Positions 851 to 35,555 of a DNA stretch of 64,000 nucleotides are shown piece after piece. Origin of the DNA: Aphrocallistes beatrix. Lineage: Eukaryota > Porifera > Hexactinellida > Sceptrulophora > Aphrocallistidae. The position numbers were made by a program, and so were the translations under genes. Every line of letters starts with the position of its first letter. The first letter of the stretch is position 1. The DNA is taken from positions 1,984,001 to 2,048,000 of the forward strand of contig OY725502.1 in NCBI GenBank assembly GCA_963281255.1. Direction: 5' to 3'. The notes beneath the pieces were generated by a model that saw only the letters and a program-made list of their open reading frames with translations, had not been told where the DNA came from and searched no databases.

Positions 851-2512
851 TTAAATAGATTCTTTCAGTTTTATTGCTCCTTTTCGAGATAAGCCAGACT
901 CCATGTTCTCTCCCGCCTGTTTCAGTCCTTCGCTCGTCTTTTCTCTCCCCCCTGATTGGTCGCTAGGGGGACGAGGAGGGGGACAGGTGGGGGAACTGAC
1001 AATGCCGGGGTTGGATTTCATTTTAATTCCGCCTCGACGCGTGATGGTGGTAGAAGCCTTCTCGGTCTGTTGGAAACCCGCCCCATCTGATGCCGCCTCT
1101 AGCTGAGTCCCGGGGCCGTGCCCGGGAGAGAGGGGCAGACTGCTCCTCATCTGGGACAGCTTCTCCCTTATGCGCGAGAAGAAGCCGCCAGGGCTAGCCT
1201 CCGGCCCATCCCGGATCCTCATGGACATGTAGAAGGACGAGGCAGGGGGCGGAGGGGACGCTGTCCGGGAGGGAGGAGGAATGGGTTGATTCTTGGCAGC
1301 GGTCGACATGTCCACATAGACAGAGGAGGCTTCCAACTCCCCCGGAGGGTTGAGAGTAGCGTAGTTGTGGTCCGTGTCCATCTCCGGCTGAGAGGGATCG
1401 GTGCAGGATTTGTCGCTGGTTTTCATAGTCATGTAGTCCGCCCTGCGCTTATAGCGACGAGTGCGGGAAATCCATCTGGAAATCCCCGTCCGGCGCCGCA
1501 GGCAGAGACAGGACGCAGCCAGGACCAACAGACAGAGGAGGGAGGTGAGGAAGAAGGTGACCAGCACAGCAGCGAGAGTTGCGACGTTGAATAGGCTGGG
1601 CGTGGAAGGCGTGGCGAGGTTGAGGTTAGGAGAGTTCTTGCCGGTCAGCAGTCCAGTCTCCGTCCTGATCCTGACCTCGCTGAGGAGGAAGGGCCCTGCT
1701 GGAATCTCCAGTGAGAGGAAGAGATAGCCGCACTGGTGCAAGCTGACAGCAATCAAGCCAATGGAGTTCGTAGTGACATTGCAGCTATCCTGTCGTGCTG
1801 TCACGGAAACCTGGTTGATGGGAAAAGGGAGGAGAGAGACTAACTCGAGTTCTGTCAAGTTATAAGCTCTGTCAAATCGGAATAAGAAATGCAGGGTTTG
1901 CGCAGTACTTGAATTCCATTCTACACGGGTACGGACATCTCCATCCGTCAGCTTCCCCACCCCGCCACTAACCACGCCCCCGTGCACCAGTCCTGTGTAC
2001 TCCGGGTCCGGGAGGGGCGGGGCTGGAGCGAGGTCGTACTGCAGCAGCTGGCGGGTCTGTACCTGCTGGAGTCGAGCTTCGCAGCCGTAGAGACTGGAGC
2101 TGATGAGCAGGGGACCCGAGTCGGGGGAGAGAGAAAACTCGAGAGAAAGGGTCAGGGACTTGGTGGATACAGGTCCTAGATACAGTTTGAACTGAGCGTC
2201 ATAAGCCCAATTAGATGAAAGATAGAACCGTATGAGGGAAGGGTGTAATGAGACTTGCTTGTCTGTGTGAGAGAGGAAAAGAGCGGAAAGTGTGCCACAC
2301 CCCGCTGCTGTCCGACAGGAGAGAGACATCCCCGTGACGGTGAGGCTGTCCAAGGGCAGGGTCATGTTGAAGAGAGAGGGGGGCTTGTGCAGGGAGCTTA
2401 TTGATAGAGGTACCATCTGTGTCAGAGATAGCAGAGAGCTGTCGCAATAGGCGCTGTGACAGGGAGGGAATAGTGACACAACTGTTACTAGTGTGTATAG
2501 GAAGCTAAGCAT
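851..2512 (-). CDS. Discoidin-domain-receptor-like membrane protein lacking a kinase domain
   Basis: Predicted 553-aa type I membrane protein. The ATG at 2512 gives a clear signal peptide (residues 1-21). Residues ~22-144 look like a diverged discoidin (F5/8 C) domain closing with LYGC. Residues ~160-287 match the DDR discoidin-like domain: GGVGKLTDG, a W at 199, FRFDRAYNLTELEL, and GPFLLSEVRI, compared with GPWLLFSEISF in DDR1. A membrane segment follows at ~308-336, then a basic stop-transfer stretch. The ~215-residue tail has tyrosines at 360 (YMTM), 384 (NYATLNP), 399 (YVDM) and 428 (YMSM). The three YxxM motifs are the type bound by PI3-kinase p85 SH2 domains. The tail also has proline-rich SH3-type stretches and a twice-used basic motif (RRGGIKMKS, RKGAIKLKE). 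DDRs are collagen-receptor tyrosine kinases; here the frame stops with no kinase. A tract ending CCCCAG lies one base before the ATG. The coding GC content is higher than its surroundings. Either a kinase-less paralogue or a novel docking receptor; function is inferred. Confidence 0.75.
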   Translation of the reverse strand: MLSFLYTLVTVVSLFPPCHSAYCDSSLLSLTQMVPLSISSLHKPPSLFNMTLPLDSLTVTGMSLSCRTAAGCGTLSALFLSHTDKQVSLHPSLIRFYLSSNWAYDAQFKLYLGPVSTKSLTLSLEFSLSPDSGPLLISSSLYGCEARLQQVQTRQLLQYDLAPAPPLPDPEYTGLVHGGVVSGGVGKLTDGDVRTRVEWNSSTAQTLHFLFRFDRAYNLTELELVSLLPFPINQVSVTARQDSCNVTTNSIGLIAVSLHQCGYLFLSLEIPAGPFLLSEVRIRTETGLLTGKNSPNLNLATPSTPSLFNVATLAAVLVTFFLTSLLCLLVLAASCLCLRRRTGISRWISRTRRYKRRADYMTMKTSDKSCTDPSQPEMDTDHNYATLNPPGELEASSVYVDMSTAAKNQPIPPPSRTASPPPPASSFYMSMRIRDGPEASPGGFFSRIREKLSQMRSSLPLSPGHGPGTQLEAASDGAGFQQTEKASTTITRRGGIKMKSNPGIVSSPTCPPPRPPSDQSGGREKTSEGLKQAGENMESGLSRKGAIKLKESI

Positions 2513-4930: not shown

Positions 4931-7302
4931 CTACGGGGACCAGTCACCTGGCCATTGTTCCTCCTGAAGCCACTGAGGCTTCCTCCTTATACGACTCGAT
5001 CTCCGAACGTTGGAATCTGTAAATCCAATTTCATGTCCCTCCATAAGCTCTGTGTTGACAACATCCGTTTCATCCTGGTCTGATAAACCGATCTCCCTTT
5101 CGCTGGCTGGGTCAGAACCCTGATCTGGAGGGTTTGACATGTTTGTATCGCTGCACGGAAATCCCATATCATGTATAAACCTTTTGCACCGATTAAGATG
5201 GACCACTTTCTCCTTTCCATCGTGGATCCGTACTCTGATATTCGGGCCTGTCTTCTTTAGCACACAAAAAGGGTCTTTGTACAAGGGTTCCAGGCAGTCT
5301 CTCCTGACTTTGTCTCTTATCAATACGAAATCACTAGCTTTAATTATGGAATTAGACTTCCCAACGTCGTAGTTTCAATTCATTACTTCCCTTGATTGTT
5401 CCAGGTTATCGCTGACACTCTGATTGACTAACTCCTCTATCTCCGTAACATCCTTAATCCACTCCTGAACAGATTTATAGTTAACTGGAATTTCTAAATC
5501 AACAGATGCTGTACATATCTGCTTCGGGTCAGTTCCATAGAAGACCTTGTATGCAGAGGCGTAGCCAGCCCAATTTTTAGGGTGCGGCAATTCCGTGGGG
5601 AGGGTTGCGGCACCCAATGCTAATTTGTGAAATTTTAGTGGGCACAGCCTTTGAGGTTGCGGCCTAGGCCCCATGTGCCGCACCCTGGCTACGCCTCTGC
5701 TTGTATGGCGTATACTTGGTACTCGCGTTCGGAGTTGTGTTAATTAATTAGGTAATTAACCTTCGGCAACAGGAGCGCCCAACTGTTCGTCTGGATATTC
5801 CGTTCATTTAGAATACAACGCATTATCTGCTTGGTACTTCTGATTCCGCGCTCAGCCTGGCCGTCCCCTTGAGGATGGTATGGAGAGCTATGCCTTTTCT
5901 CAACTCCAAATTTGGATAACATTTTCTTGAGTCTGTCACCGTCCACATTCGGGACCTGATCGCTGATCATAACTCTAGGCGGACAGTGCCTATAGATCCA
6001 ATTAGTTAATATAGCGTTGACTATTGTTTCGGCTTCTTGATTTGGCATGGAGACAAGTTCTGTAAACTTGGAGAATCCATCGACCATGAGAAGGAAGTAT
6101 CGGTGATTTTCAGAAGACCACGGGAGATATGCGACATCAAAATAAACTACCTCTCTATGTCGACGTTCATACCTCTCCAGTAGAACTTGTTCCGCACAAG
6201 AAGAGTAGTTTTTTCTTTACCAAAATGTCCTTACTATGCACTCTATCCATAATTTCGTGCTTCATCGCGGAAGGGACAACTATCTTTCGCCCAATGCAAA
6301 GAAGTCCATTGGTAATCGCCATGCCAAAATTTTTCTTGAACTGCCCCTCTGAAATCGCTCCCTTCTCTCTGATCTGATTCGATGAGTACTTACCACTCCG
6401 TCTTTTAGCCTTTGAACTAGGTTAGCCTCCTCGTCTAGGATAGAATAGAGATGTCTTTCGAAGTGTTCATTTTCGTCGTTAATACCTTCATCGATTTCTG
6501 AGTGTAATCTTGACAGGCAATTTGAAGTAACATTATTTTTCCCTTTAATTAATGTATTCTATTTGATAATTTAATGCCTCTAACTCTTGTACCCATCGTG
6601 TGAACTTCCCACGAGTATCATTTTGCTTTTTCAGCCAGATAAGGGATTGTGGTCGGATAAAATACCACGCCAGGGGCTCCCTGTAAATATTTTTTGGAAT
6701 TTTCTACTCGAAGCAATAAGAGTCCAACATTCCAATTCTCCCGCGGAATAGTTCGTCTGAGCGGGTGTGAGTCCAGAAGAGAAGTAGGAAATTGGCTTGA
6801 TATGCCCTTCTTCATCTCTTTGTGACCGTAAGGCACCGACTGCGATAGATGAGGCGTCCGTTTGCAAGAGAAACTCCTTTTTCCAATTAGGGTAGGCCAA
6901 AATTACAGGGACATCAGTAAGTTCCCTCTTAAGTGTGGAGTATGCATTATCAGCTGCGTTGTCCCATGTCCACAGCATTTCCTTTTGAGTGAGTTTATGT
7001 AGGGGTTCAGCGATTTGAGCAAAACATGGGACGTGATCCCTGTAGAAATTCGCTAATCCCCAAAACCTCTGCCGATCCTTCTTCCCTTTAGGTGGTTGAA
7101 CACCACGGATCTTCTCGAGGAGGCGTGGCGTGGGATGATGGCCATCGTGCGATATTACATGGACAATGAATTCAACTTCCCTGAACCCGAAATTACATTT
7201 TTCTTTCCTGAGCTGAATATTTGCATTTCCCAGGGCCTGAAATACTGACTCGAGATCCCCGAGATGCTGCTCGAAAGTTCTAGAGTGGACGCAGATATCG
7301 TC
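4931..7302 (-). pseudogene. Ty3/gypsy pol relic: RT end, RNase H, integrase
   Basis: Minus-strand remains of a Ty3/gypsy polyprotein. Around 7302-6980 the frame enters at the reverse transcriptase DD box (DDICVHSRTFEQHL) and continues through the RT connection (FWGLANFYRDHVPCF). RNase H follows at 6978-6631 (LLQTDASSIAVGALRSQ). The integrase core lies at 6087-5740 (DGFSKF, ISDQVPNVDGD, SSPYHPQGDGQAERG). The integrase C-terminal part is at 5323-4931, with a PFCVLKKTGPNIRVRI block and a basic tail. The reading frame is broken several times. An hAT-type MITE is inserted at 5554-5699, and the 5' part (gag, protease, most of RT) is lost where the MULE structure begins near 7305. Confidence 0.85.
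5554..5699. mobile_element. 146-bp hAT-type MITE inside the gypsy relic
   Basis: Terminal inverted repeats CAGAGGCGTAGCCAG / CTGGCTACGCCTCTG. Exact 8-bp direct repeats CTTGTATG flank it (5546-5553 and 5700-5707). Size, termini and 8-bp duplication fit a non-autonomous hAT element. Confidence 0.85.
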
Positions 7303-9391: not shown

Positions 9392-10426
9392 ATGCACCAC
9401 ATCTATGCCAGCTGGCCTTCGTCGGTACTGGAGGAGAGAGGAGATGATCACACTGGCAATGGATCGGAGAGGTGTTGCAAAACAAGGGAACAAACAAAGG
9501 GTAAGGAGATAATCAAGGCGAACAATGAGCATCTCCACGGACCAGTAGAACAGGAAGTTGGTTGTCGCGAGACTAAGATAGGCATTAAAAGGAAAGCAGA
9601 GAAAACCCGGGATAGTTCACACAGCATAGTAGGGGAAAGTCTCCTCACGGTATCTGAGGGTACGGCTGCTAAGCTGCCTAAGCTGGACAGTTTAAAGCGT
9701 ACGATACACCGTCAGAGGGAACGAGTGCTAGCTGTTCCAATACAACCAACTACCCTTGAGGAGCCCAACCTTCCACCTGAGTACCAGCAGACAGCGAAGG
9801 AAGAGCAATTCTTGCTCTACGACTCTGGTCCGGAGCCGCAGAGAATTCTCATCTTTGGTACACAGCATAACCTGGATATGTTGCAAGCATCCCAGTGCTG
9901 GCTTGCTGATAGTACTTTTAAGACAGCTCTTAACCTCTTTGCCCAAGTGTATGTGTTGCATGCACTCCGAGGAGGACCGGAATCCCTAAAAGATGGCCAT
10001 CTTTTACCTAGCCTGTTCATCCTCCTACCTAATAAAACCCAAGCTACCTACACACGGATGTGGCAACAGATCCAGTTACTCTGTCCATTTAATGCTCAGC
10101 CATCTCGGATGCTTATGGACTTTGAGAAGGCTGCCATTAACAGTTTCCAGCAGGTGTGGCCTGCTACACAGGTGAAGTGCTGCTTCTTTCACCTCACACA
10201 GAATATCTGGCGCAAAGTACAAGCTGAAGGACTGCAAGCTGCTTACAACCAAGATGAGGAACTAGCCCTACGCTTACGCCTGTTGCCAGCACTCGCCTTT
10301 GCTTCACCCTTTGATGTACTCGAGGTGTTTGGTGATGTAGTACAGGAACTTCCACTTCCAATGCCCCAAGCCACTGGTCTCGTTCTATACTTTGAGAAAA
10401 CCTATGTCGGGCGCAAACTCCCTGGT
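9392..10426 (+). pseudogene. MULE transposase, truncated inverted copy
   Basis: From about 9530 to 10426 this is a near-identical inverse copy of the minus-strand transposase at 12015-11105. It stops abruptly at the KLPGG codons, where it joins the 3' flank of the other copy. The first ~50 codons are strongly diverged: the FLYWCH zinc-finger region is degenerate (for example CCKTREQTKGKEIIKANNEHLHG), while the catalytic region is almost unchanged. It lacks the C-terminal catalytic Glu segment. Confidence 0.8.
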
Positions 10427-10465
10427 GGTTACATAGTTTCTCTACTACGTATTCTGTATTATTAC

Positions 10466-12209
10466 TTAATCTGCCTCTAAATTAAAATGGTGTGCTACAC
10501 CTCGTAAGAATTCCATGGTTGGGCGCCACACATAGCTGGTAACCAGTTGCTTCAAGGCCTCCTCGGTAGCCTGGTTTTTCTTACGTTTAGGAGGATTAGT
10601 ACCAGCGATGAACTTAGCTTGTCGTACTTCCACAAGTCCCTGTTCACGCTTCAAGGCAGTGATAAACTTCCAAATATTTGGATGGTGACAGCCAACAGTA
10701 GCATTGAAAGAGCGGTGCCATGCTTCAACTGCATTGNNNNNNNNNNNNNNNNNNNNNNNNNNNNNNNNNNNNNNNNNNNNNNNNNNNNNNNNNNNNNNNN
10801 NNNNNNNNNNNNNNNNNNNNNNNNNNNNNNNNNNNNNNNNNNNNNNNNNNNNNNNNNNNNNNNNNNNNNNNNNNNNNNNNNNNNNNNNNNNNNNNNNNNN
10901 NNNNNNNNNNNNNNNNNNNNNNNNNNNNNNNNNNNNCCTGTTCACGCTTCAAGGCAGTGATAAACTTCCAAATATTTGGATGGTGACAGCCAACAGTAGC
11001 ATTGAAAGAGCGGTGCCATGCTTCAACTGCATTGGTTGTACGAGGTAACCCAAACGCCGTGTCGTAGTGATAGTTCCACATCTCAATTGGGAACAAGGGA
11101 TCCTGGTAGGTACCACCAGGGAGTTTGCGCCCGACATAGGTTTTCTCAAAGTATAGAACGAGACCAGTGGCTTGGGGCATTGGAAGTGGAAGTTCCTGTA
11201 CTACATCACCAAACACCTCGAGTACATCAAAGGGTGAAGCAAAGGCGAGTGCTGGCAACAGGCGTAAGCGTAGGGCTAGTTCCTCATCTTGGTTGTAAGC
11301 AGCTTGCAGTCCTTCAGCTTGTACTTTGCGCCAGATATTCTGTGTGAGGTGAAAGAAGCAGCACTTCACCTGTGTAGCAGGCCACACCTGCTGGAAACTG
11401 TTAATGGCAGCCTTCTCAAAGTCCATAAGCATCCGAGATGGCTGAGCATTAAATGGACAGAGTAACTGGATCTGTTGCCACATCCGTGTGTAGGTAGCTT
11501 GGGTTTTATTAGGTAGGAGGATGAACAGGCTAGGTAAAAGATGGCCATCTTTTAGGGATTCCGGTCCTCCTCGGAGTGCATGCAACACATACACTTGGGC
11601 AAAGAGGTTAAGAGCTGTCTTAAAAGTACTATCAGCAAGCCAGCACTGGGATGCTTGCAACATATCCAGGTTATGCTGTGTACCAAAGATGAGAATTCTC
11701 TGCGGCTCCGGACCAGAGTCGTAGAGCAAGAATTGCTCTCCCTTCGCTGTCTGCTGGTACTCAGGAGGAAGGTTGAGCTCCTCAAGGGTAGTTGGTTGTA
11801 TTGGAACAGCTAGCACTCGTTCCCTCTGACGGTGTATCGTACGCTTTAAACTGTCCAGCTTAGGCAGCTTAGCAGCCGTACCCTCAGATACCGTGAGGAG
11901 ACTTTCCCCTACTATGCTGTGTGAACTATCCCGGGTTTTCTCTGCTTTCCTTTTAATGCCTATCTTAGTCTCGCGACAACCAACCTCCTGTTCTACTGGT
12001 CCATGGAGATGCTCATTGGTTCGTCTGACTATCTCCATACCCTTCGTAAGAACCCTTGCTTTGCAAATTCCTCTCTTTACGCATTGCCAGTGCTTCACAT
12101 CTCCTACTCTCCTCTGTCTGTCGTATAGGTAACCTCCTTCTACTAGTTTTTCTCCTCCTCTATAAGATCTGATCAGCCTAAACGGCTGATCAGGAGGGTC
12201 TTCTGTCAT
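10466..12209 (-). CDS. MULE transposase with FLYWCH zinc finger, split by a false gap
   Basis: Mutator-like transposase with ATG at 12209 and stop at 10466. The N-terminus is a FLYWCH finger (residues ~10-70; W41, C43, C49, H67, H69). The RNase H-like catalytic core shows D193 in LADSTF, D263 in LMDFEKA, CCFFH near 287, and E396 in NAVEAWHRSF. A 200-N gap interrupts the frame, but the 98 bases at 10639-10736 are repeated exactly at 10937-11034. Removing 298 bp leaves 1446 bp, an intact frame of 481 codons plus stop. The gene is therefore probably complete. A pyrimidine-rich tract ending GGACAG lies 3 bases before the ATG. Its product would cut and rejoin the element's ends. Confidence 0.85.
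10737..10936. other. 200-N assembly gap, probably spurious
   Basis: Exactly 200 N. The 98 bases before the gap (10639-10736) equal the 98 bases after the adjoining stretch begins (10937-11034), so two contig ends overlap. The gap has probably no real content. Confidence 0.9.
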
Positions 12210-13821: not shown

Positions 13822-16365
13822 TTAATTTGGGATGGTACGTTGTCTCGATTTAAAAACTTCAACCTGATCTTTTCTCCTCTTTTCATTAATTTCTTTTGTA
13901 AGATTCTTGAAATATATATTAGTTATTATCTTATTCGCGAGATTCTTATTGTTTTCTTCGTGCAAATCACAGCTAAAGTTTTCCCAACGGTCTGACAGGT
14001 TGTTGAGAAGACGAAGAGCGACGTTTTTCCAAGGTGTTAGGAATGAAGTAATTTTCTGTTCTGTATATTCAAGCACAGCGAATGCTGTTTGAACATGATT
14101 ATTCAGGGCAGAAGGTGGGAGTTTGAGACCTCTATCTAAATTATCCACGTATGCATTAGAAACAGGATCAGTTTTTAGAAGGTGTATACAACGCTCGCAT
14201 TGAGTTATTTTTAATAAGCAGTGAGATATATAGCCAGCAATGTAGACAACAACTTCTTCGGTGTCAATAGAGAGGGCTAGATGAGAAAGATCTTCAGTTT
14301 TCATTTCATCAATGAAAACATCAACTGGTTCCTCAGCACAGTCATGGGACAAGTCTGTTAACGCAGATAACTCAAAGTCTCTTTTTAACATACTTTTAAT
14401 CTTGATTATAGATTCTGATCTCAACACTTCGTTTAGGCTGACTAAAAATCTTCCTCCACTCATCTGGCGATATTGGGAGAATCTGCGTTCCAATGGATCA
14501 GTCTGAAGTCTTCCAGTAAGAAAGTACTCGTAACCTTCACGCAAGAGTTCACTTGTTAAGTCAGCAATCGCACGGTTGGTTTTGATTAATGCATCGAAAG
14601 TTTGCCTTGATAATCCAATTGTTTTGTTATCTCTCCAATTCTCAAGCCATAAACTAATCATCCTTAACATATCGCACCTCGAATCATTCATCTTAAGTGC
14701 ATTTCCAATAGGATTTGGATGAAATCTCTCCTTAGAATTAACTATTAGCCACCAAAAATGAAAGAGTTGAAGAAAATCAGCTGTAGTCTGCTCTTCAGGG
14801 AGGTAACTACGAATTGCTGCTATAGTAGTTTCCTCAAAGATAGCCAAGGCCAACGGGACAGATTGTTTGTTGTTACCAGGGTGTAAGACTTTGTAACCCA
14901 CTTTAGGTGCTTTTCGTAGATGAGAATTAAGGTCTAAATCTTTCGCGTGTATTTGATGCAAGTGTGACCAGCGAACGAAACCAGCAGGAACATGCACAGA
15001 GATTTCATTGGTGATACATGAAAATTCTGGAATCTGGAAAAAACGAGAAGCTAAGAGGTTGTTTCGGATGTTTTTAACTAGGTGCACCGTATCGTGTATT
15101 AAATATATTTCTGATAAATGGCATTTTGGATTGAAGATTGCATAGTCCTTGCCTTGAATGGGATACATCTTCAACAAATCCTTGTAAGCACCAACATTAG
15201 TTGAATGATTGTCCGAGATCACAGCGCGTAGTTGGAAATTTGTTTCAGTTAGAGATATGATACAACTGATTATCATGTCTCTCACGAGTACATGTGAAAG
15301 CTTGACGATTGGTATGGCTTTTAGTACAAACGGTATGCATCGTTTTAAAGATATTACCATAAACGTAAGAATACTTTTGTACATCTCCAAATTAGCATCA
15401 CACCCAATAAGAGTTGTGCCAGTGAATTGAACTTGGGGCTGCAAATACATCTCGTCAAGAAGTAGAACAATATCATTCCCAATAAGTCCATTGTTACGAA
15501 GTAAGCACAACACATCACTAGTAATGACAGAACGAGACTTCAACTTTCTGAGAAGAGACTCACTAGGCAGGGGTAAAAATTTAGACAGAAATTGATAAGC
15601 GGAATGTGAAGTGTATCGTAGCATTAGAGCGAACTTCAGGACTTCAGAGGAATACTTTGGCCTTCCTTTAGGACTGTAAAAGCATACGCTGAGTAACTTT
15701 TTTATCACGTCCACATCATAGGAACAAGTTGCATTCCGACAATAGCTCGGAAGGTTTGTTAGGAGGTCTAAGGAATGTAGTTTCCCAGATTGCTTGCAAA
15801 TATAAGCTGGTAATGGGAGCGGAACACCTTCATAACTCAACTGGACATGAAGATCACAGTCAATATGAATACATTCTTTAACAGTTGCGATACCAGAGTT
15901 AATATTGAGAAGGTATGCTGTAATATCGACTTTAGTATTAACAAAGGTGAACCCTTCATATTCTTCAGCACTGTGTAAATATGCAACCACGTCTTCGAAA
16001 GATCTAATGGAGAACTTATCAGAAAATAAGGGCAGTTCATCAGGGCGGAAGATTCTTTCAGCAGGGGACTTTCTACAAGGTTTAGGAATAACTGCTTGAC
16101 TTTGAGGGGTTGAAGAAGGATGAATAGTAGGGATGGGATATAAAGAGGAATCCAATCTCACTCTTTTTGGGTTGCGAATTAAATATTTTTCTTCAAAGTG
16201 ATCTATACAAATACTAGCATTAGCAGATGGAGAATAATCTTGTCGCTGTAAAAATTGTTGCCATTTTTCACGCAGAGAGCTGTCACTTGGGAACTTGAAC
16301 ATAGGTTTCGTACTAGCTGTGAGGTAACCTGTTTTACATCCTGTAACTGCACATTTATTAGGCAT
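13822..16365 (-). CDS. THAP-domain P-element transposase, intact, 847 aa
   Basis: A single open frame with ATG at 16365. Residues 1-~75 are a C2CH THAP DNA-binding domain: C5, C10, the FKFPSD and W35 positions, and CIDHF. The RNase H-like catalytic region has candidate acidic residues in LLLDEMYL (~298) and AVISDNHST (~383), then IHDTVHLVKNIRNNLL, and the late glutamate in DPLERRFSQYRQMSGG (~620). The C-terminus has the VVVYIAGYISHCLL...CERC block seen in THAP9/P transposases. Length is close to Drosophila P (751 aa) and human THAP9 (903 aa). Unlike Drosophila P there is no intron, so repression by intron retention would not apply. A pyrimidine/AG acceptor-like sequence (CTAACTTAG) precedes the ATG by two bases. 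Confidence 0.93.
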   Translation of the reverse strand: MPNKCAVTGCKTGYLTASTKPMFKFPSDSSLREKWQQFLQRQDYSPSANASICIDHFEEKYLIRNPKRVRLDSSLYPIPTIHPSSTPQSQAVIPKPCRKSPAERIFRPDELPLFSDKFSIRSFEDVVAYLHSAEEYEGFTFVNTKVDITAYLLNINSGIATVKECIHIDCDLHVQLSYEGVPLPLPAYICKQSGKLHSLDLLTNLPSYCRNATCSYDVDVIKKLLSVCFYSPKGRPKYSSEVLKFALMLRYTSHSAYQFLSKFLPLPSESLLRKLKSRSVITSDVLCLLRNNGLIGNDIVLLLDEMYLQPQVQFTGTTLIGCDANLEMYKSILTFMVISLKRCIPFVLKAIPIVKLSHVLVRDMIISCIISLTETNFQLRAVISDNHSTNVGAYKDLLKMYPIQGKDYAIFNPKCHLSEIYLIHDTVHLVKNIRNNLLASRFFQIPEFSCITNEISVHVPAGFVRWSHLHQIHAKDLDLNSHLRKAPKVGYKVLHPGNNKQSVPLALAIFEETTIAAIRSYLPEEQTTADFLQLFHFWWLIVNSKERFHPNPIGNALKMNDSRCDMLRMISLWLENWRDNKTIGLSRQTFDALIKTNRAIADLTSELLREGYEYFLTGRLQTDPLERRFSQYRQMSGGRFLVSLNEVLRSESIIKIKSMLKRDFELSALTDLSHDCAEEPVDVFIDEMKTEDLSHLALSIDTEEVVVYIAGYISHCLLKITQCERCIHLLKTDPVSNAYVDNLDRGLKLPPSALNNHVQTAFAVLEYTEQKITSFLTPWKNVALRLLNNLSDRWENFSCDLHEENNKNLANKIITNIYFKNLTKEINEKRRKDQVEVFKSRQRTIPN

Positions 16366-30221: not shown

Positions 30222-30248
30222 TAACTTTGTAACAAGTTAGATTAATTA

Positions 30249-31964
30249 ATGGCTTCGGTAGTTCCTCGCACAGAAGTGACATCATTCCTCACACAACTGC
30301 CAATCAATCTCATATACAAAGGCAAGGAACGGAAGTTTTTTCTACCTACATTCCAGCAAGTGGAGCTTGTCCTACCTGCTATTAGAGAAGCGATTGGAGT
30401 ACATCGGGACATGCATATTAATATCAAGTGGATCGACGACGATGGAGATCCAATCACCTTAGAATCGCAACTTGATTGGGTCGAGTTGCTTCGTCTTTTT
30501 CCATACAATCAAGACGGATTGATCATTATGCACGTGTTCGATGGTCCCAAGCCGCCCCCTGGCCATCTCTGTGAATTAGAGGACATCAACCTATACAAGA
30601 GGAGGGGAGCTAAGCGTTGGAAGAAGCAACTGCGCCTCAATGGTCACATTTTCCAAGCCAAACGTCTCAACGCAGCATTCTGCATCATCTGCAACGATCA
30701 CATCTGGGGCCTGGGTAGACAAGGGTTCCGGTGCACTCAGTGTAGGATCATAGTTCACAAACGCTGTGTTAAGTTCATAAGGCAGATTTGCGAAGGCCCA
30801 TCTCAAGCGGCTCATTCCGACCGCTTGCCAGGGTCTGAAGCCGCCGACTCTCAGCGCGAAGAAAGGATTAAGAAGGCGATCAAGCAACCAGCCTCCAACC
30901 CAGTCTTCGACTCCACCATTTCGATCGACGACTTCAACATCCTCAAGGTGATTGGGCGGGGTTCCTACGCTAAGGTGTTGCTGGCGGAGCAGAAGAAACG
31001 GTCCAAGCTTTACGCAATTAAGGTGGTAAAGAAGGAGCTGCTGACGGATGAGGAAGACTTTGACTGGGTGCAAACAGAGAAGAATGTTTTCGAAGCCGCC
31101 TCGAATCACCCGTACCTGGTCGGTCTGCACTCTTGCTTTCAGTCCGAGTCTCGTCTCTTCTTCGTGATCGAGTTCGTGCGGGGAGGAGACCTCATGTTCC
31201 ATATGCAGCGCCAAAGGAAACTGCCGGAGGACCATGCCCGCTTCTACTCCGCCGAGATCTGCCTCGCCCTGAACTACTTGCATGAGGGGGGGATCATCTA
31301 CAGGGATCTCAAGCTGGATAATGTGCTGCTGGACGAGGACGGACATATCAAGCTCACTGACTACGGGATGTGCAAAGAGAAAGTTTTTAAAGGCGAGACC
31401 ACTAACACTTTCTGCGGCACGCCCAACTACATCGCACCTGAGATTATTCGCGGGCAGAGCTACTCCTACTCCGTGGACTGGTGGGCGTTAGGAGTGCTGC
31501 TCTACGAGATGCTGGTGGGCAGGTCGCCCTTCGACGTGACTACACATCAGCATGAAGCAGGCGACGCCACGGAGGACCTCCTCTTTCAGATGATTCTTGA
31601 GAAGACGATTCGAGTGCCGAGGAGTCTGTCAGTAAGAGCGGCCAACGTCTTGAAAGGATTCCTCGCTAAAAATCCCAAGGATCGGTTGGGTTGCAATCCA
31701 GATGGTGGTTTCTTGGATATTAAGTCTCACCAATTCTTTCGCTCCATTGATTGGAAGCAATTGGAGATGAGAGAAGTAGAGTCTCCATTCATTCCGCGGA
31801 CTGAGGATGAGAGAGATGTGATCAATTTCGATACGCAATTCACCAATGAGCCCCTCGATTTCACTCCAGTGGACAAAGGAGTTCTAGATAGAATCGATCA
31901 GGCAGAGTTTGAAGGCTTCGAATATGTAAATCCGCTTTTTATGACACAAGAGGACCAAGTGTAA
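30249..31964 (+). CDS. aPKC: Atypical protein kinase C
   Basis: The 571-aa Ser/Thr kinase belongs to the PAR3-PAR6-aPKC polarity complex. Domain order: PB1 (~18-100), which binds PAR6; pseudosubstrate YKRRGAKRWKK with Ala121; one C1 finger (NGHIFQAKRL...CIIC...CTQC...HKRC), with one residue fewer than human between the first His and Cys; AGC kinase domain from ~229. Kinase residues: glycine loop GRGSYAKV, Lys258, Asp353 in YRDLKLDN. The atypical-PKC signature DYGMCKE replaces DFG. The activation-loop Thr387 (TTNTFCGTPNY) is the expected PDK1 site, and Thr539 is the turn motif (NEPLDFTP). The hydrophobic motif FEGFEY has Glu558 in place of Ser/Thr, as in all aPKCs. No C2 domain. Complete, intron-free and slightly shorter than human PKC-iota (596 aa). 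The start lies 27 bp after a MITE. Confidence 0.97.
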   Translation: MASVVPRTEVTSFLTQLPINLIYKGKERKFFLPTFQQVELVLPAIREAIGVHRDMHINIKWIDDDGDPITLESQLDWVELLRLFPYNQDGLIIMHVFDGPKPPPGHLCELEDINLYKRRGAKRWKKQLRLNGHIFQAKRLNAAFCIICNDHIWGLGRQGFRCTQCRIIVHKRCVKFIRQICEGPSQAAHSDRLPGSEAADSQREERIKKAIKQPASNPVFDSTISIDDFNILKVIGRGSYAKVLLAEQKKRSKLYAIKVVKKELLTDEEDFDWVQTEKNVFEAASNHPYLVGLHSCFQSESRLFFVIEFVRGGDLMFHMQRQRKLPEDHARFYSAEICLALNYLHEGGIIYRDLKLDNVLLDEDGHIKLTDYGMCKEKVFKGETTNTFCGTPNYIAPEIIRGQSYSYSVDWWALGVLLYEMLVGRSPFDVTTHQHEAGDATEDLLFQMILEKTIRVPRSLSVRAANVLKGFLAKNPKDRLGCNPDGGFLDIKSHQFFRSIDWKQLEMREVESPFIPRTEDERDVINFDTQFTNEPLDFTPVDKGVLDRIDQAEFEGFEYVNPLFMTQEDQV

Positions 31965-33251: not shown

Positions 33252-35555
33252 TTAAATTTGTTTAAGGTAAGATATGTTATTTGACTTGATTCGTTTGCAC
33301 TTTTTGACATCTTTGAGCATTAGGCATGCTATTCCCATCCCCAGTCCGAACAATGTGGCTGTAATCATTGTAACTGTATGTTCGACCTCCTTTAGCAGCG
33401 GGGCATTTATCACAAATATTTGAACTTGAGATTTGAAAAAACAATACGTCCATATGGAATTAGGCTTGAATTTCGCTTCAAAATGAAATAGACCAGAACC
33501 GAGGAAATGAATATAATGACTGTCACTGATGTTCGAATGAATAAAATCTGATCGATTATTGATCTCTATAAGTGAGAATGGAATTTTCCAGTCATCGATA
33601 TGCTGAATAACTGACCCGTCTTCCCATGATAAGCTGGTCTGAATATGAAGAGGGTGATGATACTGGTGAACCCGAACTCTCTCTTTGCACTCGCTAAGAC
33701 TAATGTCTTCAGAATTTTTCTTTTCTTCATTGCACTTACAATCTTTCCTGGATTTGAAATTAAGACAATGTCTTAATATGAATGGCACTGATTTATAATG
33801 CACGTTTGGTTTTATTTTTAACTCTGGATAGTAATTATAAATATTAGTGCTGGTTGGAACCATATGTCCGTAGGATGAAGGCGGTCTATAATTTGGTGGA
33901 AGTGAGTAGTAGTTCGTTTTGTGTGATGGGGATATTAATGTTAATTTGTACTGTGACGGACAAGCAACTTTGATATTCAGGGATTTCCTATGGAGAGGAA
34001 GTCTACTCGTGCATTTTGGCGCAATTCTGATATTCGTAGCTCCAACTGGTTTGTAAGCTAGTATCAATTCAAGGTGGGTACGGTTCAGTTCGCTCTGCTG
34101 AGAGAGCTTGATCAAATTTGGTCCAAAATGTAACATTTCAAAAATGAGATCAGAAATTCTAAATTCTGATTTAAGAACAATAACACGAATCGTGAAAGTT
34201 TCCCATCGATCAATAACCCTTGCAGATGGTAGATAGGAGGGAATGAATTCTAACTTCCTGACTAAACAGTTGGATTTCTCTATTAACAATTGGGAGAATT
34301 TGGTATTGCTTACATATACGAATGGTTGCCCCCACGTGCCCAGGAATATAGTCGTATTATAATTGAGTATATGGGGATTTGATAAAGAGACGTGGCAGTC
34401 TTCAACATAGTAACTTGAATTGTGTGTGTATATTAAACAGGATACCTCCTGAAATAGAATTGCTTTTATTTGGGGAATATCGAAAGTTTGAGTTTCAAGA
34501 GAATGAGTTATCTGCAATACATTCTTACCAATCGTAAATATTGCGTGGGAATGAGGATTTATGAAGAAATTTGTTGCGAATTGTTCTTTCTCGCCAGTCC
34601 AGACTTCATCTAGAAGTTTAAATTTAGATGAGGTTGGTAGGGATATATTCAAAGAGATTATTTTTGAATGATTATTGGACGTAATTAAAAGCATTAGTCT
34701 ATCAGAAAACAATTTAGCATCCATGATTCGAGTAATAGTAACTTTCCATTCAATCAATAGATCGGTGAGATTAAAATATGTTGTTTGATTTGCAGATGTT
34801 TCGTGAATCGTTATAACGTCACTCTCGTTTATAAGCACTAGTAGGTTTGGGTTTGCTCTTATCAATCTGAATTCAAAATTAAATTCAAATTTTAAAACCT
34901 TTTCTGATAATAGAAATACTTTCCTATCAGATCGGAGCAGCATTGAGAAATGATCTAATTGCTGTACCTCTGTAATAAATAGAGGATTTGAAATATTCAA
35001 AAATTCGGATATATCTATCTGGAATGCTTCGTCTGCGACTGGAGAAATGAACACAGATAATTTTGAATGGTCGTATCCGAGCAGAACCTCAGGGATGGGG
35101 GCATACTGAAAAGTATTATTGGTTAAGTTAGTCTTGTGTTTTTCAATGAAGTTGTCAGAAAATCTGTAGAATATAGGGTCATTGACAATTATCCATAAGA
35201 TAAGTATTCTCGATTCCAAATAGTTGCGAATTTGCAAATAGTATTTGATGCCTTTGAAATAATGTTTTGGGAGTAAAATACTACAAACAGAAGCATCTCC
35301 GTCTGGTTGTATCGTTATATTTACATGGAAAGAGCCGTTATAGAGCAATGCGTTGAAGTCCGAATAATTACAGGAATGATTAGTATCCAGGTACAAAATC
35401 AGGTCTGTATCTTCGTATGATGATCCCCCCAATAGCAAATATACTTGTTCTATTCGAGTGCTTTCTTCGCGGTTCTTCGAGCTAAACAAGGAAAACGGAC
35501 AAGAGAGTGGGATAATTATGCAAGTTATTGCATATAGTACGATATGTAATATCAT
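33252..35555 (-). CDS. CATSPERD: CatSper auxiliary subunit, delta/epsilon type
   Basis: The 767-aa predicted type I membrane protein fits an auxiliary subunit of the sperm flagellar Ca2+ channel CatSper, whose large ectodomains form the extracellular canopy. An N-terminal signal peptide (~1-22) is followed by ~700 extracellular residues with many N-glycosylation sequons and beta-rich sequence. The most telling block is CPSQYKLTL...LPPNYRPPSSYGHMVPTSTNIYNYYPE (~535-575), the conserved NYRPPS..G...P.S.N.Y segment shared by CATSPERD/E. A C-terminal WTYCFFKSQVQIFVINAP leads into one membrane helix (~728-748) and a short basic tail. Length is near human CATSPERD (798 aa) and shorter than CATSPERE (951). 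The ATG immediately follows ATTATTAAG. One exon. Assignment to delta rather than epsilon is uncertain. No other CatSper gene is seen in the window. Confidence 0.72.
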   Translation of the reverse strand: MILHIVLYAITCIIIPLSCPFSLFSSKNREESTRIEQVYLLLGGSSYEDTDLILYLDTNHSCNYSDFNALLYNGSFHVNITIQPDGDASVCSILLPKHYFKGIKYYLQIRNYLESRILILWIIVNDPIFYRFSDNFIEKHKTNLTNNTFQYAPIPEVLLGYDHSKLSVFISPVADEAFQIDISEFLNISNPLFITEVQQLDHFSMLLRSDRKVFLLSEKVLKFEFNFEFRLIRANPNLLVLINESDVITIHETSANQTTYFNLTDLLIEWKVTITRIMDAKLFSDRLMLLITSNNHSKIISLNISLPTSSKFKLLDEVWTGEKEQFATNFFINPHSHAIFTIGKNVLQITHSLETQTFDIPQIKAILFQEVSCLIYTHNSSYYVEDCHVSLSNPHILNYNTTIFLGTWGQPFVYVSNTKFSQLLIEKSNCLVRKLEFIPSYLPSARVIDRWETFTIRVIVLKSEFRISDLIFEMLHFGPNLIKLSQQSELNRTHLELILAYKPVGATNIRIAPKCTSRLPLHRKSLNIKVACPSQYKLTLISPSHKTNYYSLPPNYRPPSSYGHMVPTSTNIYNYYPELKIKPNVHYKSVPFILRHCLNFKSRKDCKCNEEKKNSEDISLSECKERVRVHQYHHPLHIQTSLSWEDGSVIQHIDDWKIPFSLIEINNRSDFIHSNISDSHYIHFLGSGLFHFEAKFKPNSIWTYCFFKSQVQIFVINAPLLKEVEHTVTMITATLFGLGMGIACLMLKDVKKCKRIKSNNISYLKQI

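Follow-up and report, generated by a model that had tools for sequence, protein, structure and literature searches.

The minus-strand gene at positions 851 to 2512 of the window, by which we mean the whole 64,000-nucleotide stretch analysed (C16:1984001-2048000 in a 28-contig genome of 100.5 Mb), most likely encodes a single-pass receptor that descended from the DDR (discoidin receptor) tyrosine kinases and lost its kinase; this is the best explanation we have for the gene as a whole, and we hold it with about even confidence. As read from the gene models, this genome has no fewer than 12 DDR-like genes without a kinase, this one included, a family that went unnoticed in the first reading of the region.

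Coding frame and ectodomain of the window gene

The frame reads from 2512 to 851 without interruption, giving 553 codons and a stop with no introns; the remaining frames over this interval hold 20, 18 and 32 stops on the plus strand and 24 and 12 on the minus strand. A putative signal peptide, a hydrophobic leader judged by eye, occupies residues 1–21 (2450..2512; all features of the gene lie on the minus strand) and is followed by residues 22–139 (2096..2449) at the position of the DS domain, unrecognisable as such by a profile of paralog DS domains. By profile, residues 140–285 (1658..2095) comprise the end of the DS region (LYGCEA) and the DDR DS-like domain. Hydropathy identified a single strong membrane segment (approximately residues 310–338, 1499..1585; 19-residue windows scoring above 1.6 begin at residues 304–322), past which we counted a cytoplasmic tail of 215 residues (339–553, 854..1498), matching the ~215 residues given in the initial annotation. 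This frame contains every peptide on which that annotation relied: GVGKLTDG, FRFDRA, GPFLLSEVRI, YMTM, YVDM, YMSM, NYATLNP and the runs of proline.

A DDR kinase profile built from the DDR kinases of the same genome had no match in the tail, as the initial annotation had claimed from the letters, and the intracellular tyrosine kinase of the DDR family was not found by profile search in the window gene. The earlier statement that no kinase lies within 850 bp could be extended to ~8.8 kb beyond the stop, as the profile had no match in C16:1976000-1985000; the next gene on the same strand, a SCAF-like gene with CID and RRM domains, opens at C16:1983539, ~1.3 kb past the stop of the window gene. 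The only kinase match in the window is distant (30246-31961, plus strand), and its PB1, C1 and kinase domains are those of an atypical PKC. The intronless frame, in contrast to the three exons that make up each paralog ectodomain we read, would suit a pseudogene, a retrocopy or an assembly break that removed a kinase, but this is made very improbable by 553 open codons set against the stops in the other same-strand frames, by the presence of the next gene on the same contig ~1.3 kb further on, and by further single-frame genes in the window (the atypical PKC, PSMD3 and TGT).

Several other features of the window were identified along the way. On the minus strand, retroelement-like pieces adjoin the receptor gene at 5740-6978 (an integrase core at 5740-6087 and, by eye, an RNase H-like frame at 6631-6978), a THAP-domain P-element-like transposase has an 847 aa open frame at 13822-16365, and a CATSPERB C-terminal domain, whose family is named for a sperm calcium-channel subunit, lies in a single frame of 767 aa at 33252-35555. 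Near-identical transposase frames occur on both strands around an N run at 9392-12209, with MULE and FLYWCH matches in the minus-strand frame.

The kinship of the ectodomain to DDRs became apparent through profiles. Searched alone against PDB, the whole window protein had no match at E ≤ 1, and against the DDR DS-like family PF21114 it fell under the 27-bit cut-off (E 0.22 for the whole protein, 0.05 for the ectodomain alone). Searching the genome with the window protein and with PF21114 pointed to loci on C1, C4, C6, C13, C18 and C20; the 10 PF21114 hits all fall short of the family cut-off, the best scoring 24.2 of 27 bits. We built a profile from 11 exon-joined ectodomains of the same genome, three of them from kinase-bearing DDRs and the window protein excluded, and the window protein scored 47.6 bits on it over residues 62-282, compared with at most 2.5 bits when its ectodomain was shuffled 1000 times, which bears out the DDR-like ectodomain of the initial annotation. 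A profile of nine ectodomains, the window's included, matched only DDR1 in PDB at E ≤ 0.1 (4ag4, 8e-11; 8pe9, 9e-7), and all nine matched PF21114 at that threshold. An alignment of the window protein with last-exon rows matched a different protein in PDB twice, at a near-chance level (E 0.66 and 0.67), and we set these matches aside. The DS-like domain of the DDR family is thus recognised in the window protein by profile, with the ectodomain 21–24% identical to those of the three kinase-bearing receptors.

The N-terminal, collagen-binding discoidin domain of the DDR family was not detected by sequence comparison. On a DS profile drawn from the 11 paralogs, residues 22–139 scored −0.3 bits, short of the 9.2 bits attained by the highest-scoring of 2000 shuffles. 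The region is 118 residues long, compared with 146–168 in nine paralogs and 108 and 118, as cut, in two from C13. The DS domain may have either diverged past recognition or been replaced. The initial annotation had called the protein a collagen-type receptor; with the collagen-binding position scoring as it does, the collagen claim for this receptor is weak.

Kinase-bearing and kinase-less DDR-like genes in the genome

Fifteen genes with a DDR ectodomain had a readable tail, in gene models that are reading frames with inferred exon joins, and 12 of these are kinase-less: the window gene, those on C4, C1 and C20, four on C6, three on C13 and C18c. All counts exclude a fourth C13 gene and a C18 gene at ~69.7-71.0 kb, whose last exons are missing from the models. 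Kinase exons come after the C18a, C18b and C18d ectodomains, all in one array on C18; a genome search for a full-length DDR had been recommended in the initial annotation. Against PDB the C18a kinase matched DDR2 best (240.6 bits) and DDR1 next, with the best non-DDR match over a single stretch at 169.4 bits among the best 60 of 869 matches; on these scores it is a kinase of the DDR type. An EGFR entry that nominally topped this search at 246.8 bits was discounted, as its score is the sum of two stretches.

A kinase-less gene at C18 79.6-77.6 kb sits among the kinase-bearing genes, and as the leader of the next gene begins ~370 bp past its stop there is no space for a kinase. At the other loci read (L018-L023, L026-L029) the DDR kinase profile had no match, over a reach that in places extends only ~2–5 kb past the stops, and a genome-wide kinase search in which 143 of 413 candidates were scored listed no DDR kinase beside those kinase-less loci. 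The four C6 genes are similar and lie within C6:5045500-5081000, two per strand, with near-identical tails (YYVPM..NYENV..YSKIENEYVA). The region C1:10498068-10791678 holds several further tyrosine kinases, each encoded by one uninterrupted frame of ~1000 aa, including a 1017 aa frame with an SH2 domain and a kinase close together (C1:10790614-10791678).

Tyrosine motifs of the tails and PI3-kinase partners

Three of the five tyrosines in the window tail stand in YxxM motifs, namely Y360 in YMTM (1424..1435), Y399 in YVDM (1307..1318) and Y428 in YMSM (1220..1231). This layout, which the initial annotation had singled out, exceeds chance (p 0.0003 over 20,000 shuffles, 0.0005 with the tyrosines fixed), although the gene was chosen for its motifs and the p values are uncorrected for that choice; several YxxM beyond chance are a feature of p85-docking scaffolds. 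The tail also carries Y384 in NYATLNP (1346..1366), a YxxL motif, and a proline-rich run PIPPPSRTASPPPP (1244..1285) that may be an SH3 or WW ligand. It showed no firm homology to five other tails, the best match being to that of C4 (4 of 500 shuffles as good).

YxxM motifs are found in nine of the 12 kinase-less tails, more than one only in the window gene. The C4 gene (YVDM), the four C6 genes (YVPM), C18c (YVPM) and two C13 genes (YTDM) have one each, and the C20, C1 and C13c tails have none. Taken singly, only the window tail exceeds chance; the eight tails with one YxxM gave p 0.12 to 0.28 by shuffle and up to 0.31 with tyrosines fixed. We then counted the +3 residue in eight of the 12 tails, one per group, after setting aside C6b, C6c, C6d and C13b, which nearly duplicate tails that were kept. 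Methionine occupies +3 after 7 of 53 tyrosines, where 1.33 are expected (P 0.00036), and 4 of 48 without the window tail (P 0.018). At the +1 position, M, V, I or E is found in six of the seven YxxM, compared with a background of 20% (P 0.00038), and these are the residues that p85 prefers there. The tails contain NPxY, YxN and YxxI/L patterns as well. The idea that the juxtamembranes of kinase-bearing receptors are without YxxM was ruled out by YELM in C18b, the single YxxM among the three when the first juxtamembrane part is counted and the second exon left out.

The same counts bear on the reading that these are adhesion or uptake receptors in which YxxM serves as a YxxPhi sorting signal for AP-2 rather than as a p85 site. 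YxxM fits YxxPhi, and in the eight tails the +3 position also has more isoleucine (5 of 53, P 0.021) and valine (6 of 53, P 0.042) than expected; such a motif has a double use in CTLA-4. However, methionine has the strongest excess, leucine shows none (5 of 53, P 0.26) and phenylalanine is absent, and we consider an exclusively sorting role unlikely.

Docking at YxxM would require p85, and searches of the genome revealed plausible partners. A 440-aa frame on C12 has the order SH2-iSH2-SH2; its best PDB match, to the PI3K regulatory subunit alpha, has E 6.6e-40 and spans the first SH2 and the iSH2. A second SH2-iSH2-SH2 set lies on C2. A p85-like protein with two SH2 domains, the partner of such scaffolds, is encoded in the same genome, although the iSH2 matches themselves, at 28.2 and 25 bits, stay below the Pfam threshold of 31.5, and the search also matched a single one of its 14 control genomes, that of an archaeon. 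The p110 domain that binds p85 is present twice, on C6 and C7, both above cut-off.

The IRS proteins, ErbB3 and CD28/ICOS have YxxM docking tails that are phosphorylated by another kinase and then dock p85. We propose these as the nearest functional comparisons for the window receptor, which differs from them in its DDR-derived ectodomain and in lacking both a kinase-like domain and an IRS domain match; the PH and PTB (IRS) domains of the IRS family had no Pfam match in the window protein at E ≤ 1, and elsewhere in the genome there are 18 IRS-type PTB matches. To DDR1 and DDR2 it is similar in its DS-like domain, single membrane segment and tyrosine-bearing intracellular part, and unlike them in lacking a kinase, in its unrecognisable DS domain and in carrying three YxxM in a 215-residue tail. 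A passage of PMC10050580, citing Lemeer et al., describes DDR1 phosphopeptides as themselves binding PI3K, at Tyr703.

The sequence supports the view that signalling through a kinase of its own is impossible for the window receptor and that its tail offers candidate phosphotyrosine docking sites. We think it most likely that ligand binding or clustering of the receptor would start signalling, that a kinase in another molecule, either a full-length DDR or one of Src type, would phosphorylate Y360, Y399 and Y428, and that the two SH2 domains of p85 would then bind the phosphorylated YxxM motifs and bring PI3-kinase to the membrane. That the window receptor is such a PI3K-docking co-receptor of DDR origin, with its phosphorylation supplied by a separate kinase, is a proposal whose chances we put at about equal either way.

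Mosaic ectodomains and tails

In a tree of 12 ectodomains, nine kinase-less and three kinase-bearing, the kinase state must have changed at least twice, counting well-supported branches; the position of the window gene in it is uncertain because of its long branch. Comparisons of ectodomain and tail were made for six genes, with C6c, C6d and the other groups left out. The ectodomain of the kinase receptor C18a is 83 and 85% identical to those of the kinase-less C6a and C6b, whereas its membrane segment and tail share 45% identity with C18b (none of 500 shuffles equalled the score of the tail by itself) vs 29% with C6 (19 of 500 and 5 of 500 shuffles as good). The C18c ectodomain groups with those of C18b and C18d (53–54%) and its tail with C6 (33–34%, 0 of 500 shuffles). 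At the DNA level, C18a and C18b are 93.8% identical over 1182 bases of the kinase region, the C18a ectodomain exons are 80–90% identical to C6a and C6b exons, and one exon is common to C18b, C18c and C18d at ~95% identity, the flanking exons of C18c having no DNA match. As C18a is like C6 in its ectodomain but like C18b in its tail, an exchange of ectodomains and tails is probable, and these mosaic identities are most simply explained by exchange or gene conversion among the gene copies. Fast change of the tail after kinase loss could explain part of the pattern.

Vertebrate paired immune receptors carry closely similar ectodomains on different signalling tails. The C18 and C6 genes resemble them in having near-alike ectodomains and differing tails, and differ in that the ectodomains are those of DDRs and the alternatives are a kinase and a docking tail, not an activating and an inhibitory one. 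Tentatively, and with somewhat less confidence than we have in the docking role of the window receptor, we suggest a paired-receptor system on DDR ectodomains, with a kinase set and a larger, genome-encoded kinase-less set bearing p85-type YxxM and other tyrosine motifs, in which exchange keeps re-matching ectodomains and tails; the window gene would be a divergent, PI3K-specialised outlier with three YxxM.

The high identity of C6a and C6b to the C18a ectodomain also makes a shared ligand or dimers possible, as would be expected if the kinase-less forms were decoys or dominant negatives that pair or compete with full-length DDRs and damp them, with tail motifs serving turnover only. There is precedent for such forms: kinase-deficient DDR1 splice forms are described in passages of PMC4789497, PMC9554349 and PMC10050580, among them the truncated isoforms DDR1d and DDR1e (PMC4789497), which are called nonfunctional in a passage of PMC10050580. 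The genes described here are like DDR1d and DDR1e in having a DDR ectodomain without kinase activity (PMC4789497), and differ in being separate genes with tyrosine-motif tails instead of splice forms of a kinase gene. Nevertheless, a pure decoy has no need of an excess of YxxM, and the window ectodomain, only 21–24% identical to the kinase-bearing ones, is a poor candidate for direct pairing, which leaves damping as a rather doubtful account; together with AP-2 sorting it is nevertheless the chief competitor of the docking proposal.

We regard the source of the genome as an animal and probably a sponge. DDR orthologues are stated for sponges and ctenophores in a passage of PMC6485061. In the literature searched, which consisted mostly of titles and abstract openings, we identified no separate kinase-less DDR genes with YxxM tails and no combination of DDR1, YxxM and p85; a chapter on invertebrate DDRs (Unsoeld et al. 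2016) is outside that scope and may bear on novelty. If the docking and exchange proposals are true, duplication, kinase loss and tail exchange would have split a matrix-receptor family into kinases and kinase-less PI3K-docking co-receptors, a simple natural case of sensing and catalysis residing in separate molecules, and the repeated origin of YxxM docking tails on one kind of ectodomain would become testable.

Two further observations concern the C18 array (C18:69500-90000). The C18a and C18b ectodomains barely align as DNA despite the near identity of their kinase DNA, and the C18b and C18d ectodomains are 97% identical as proteins, yet their tails are not significantly alike (105 of 500 shuffles did equally well).
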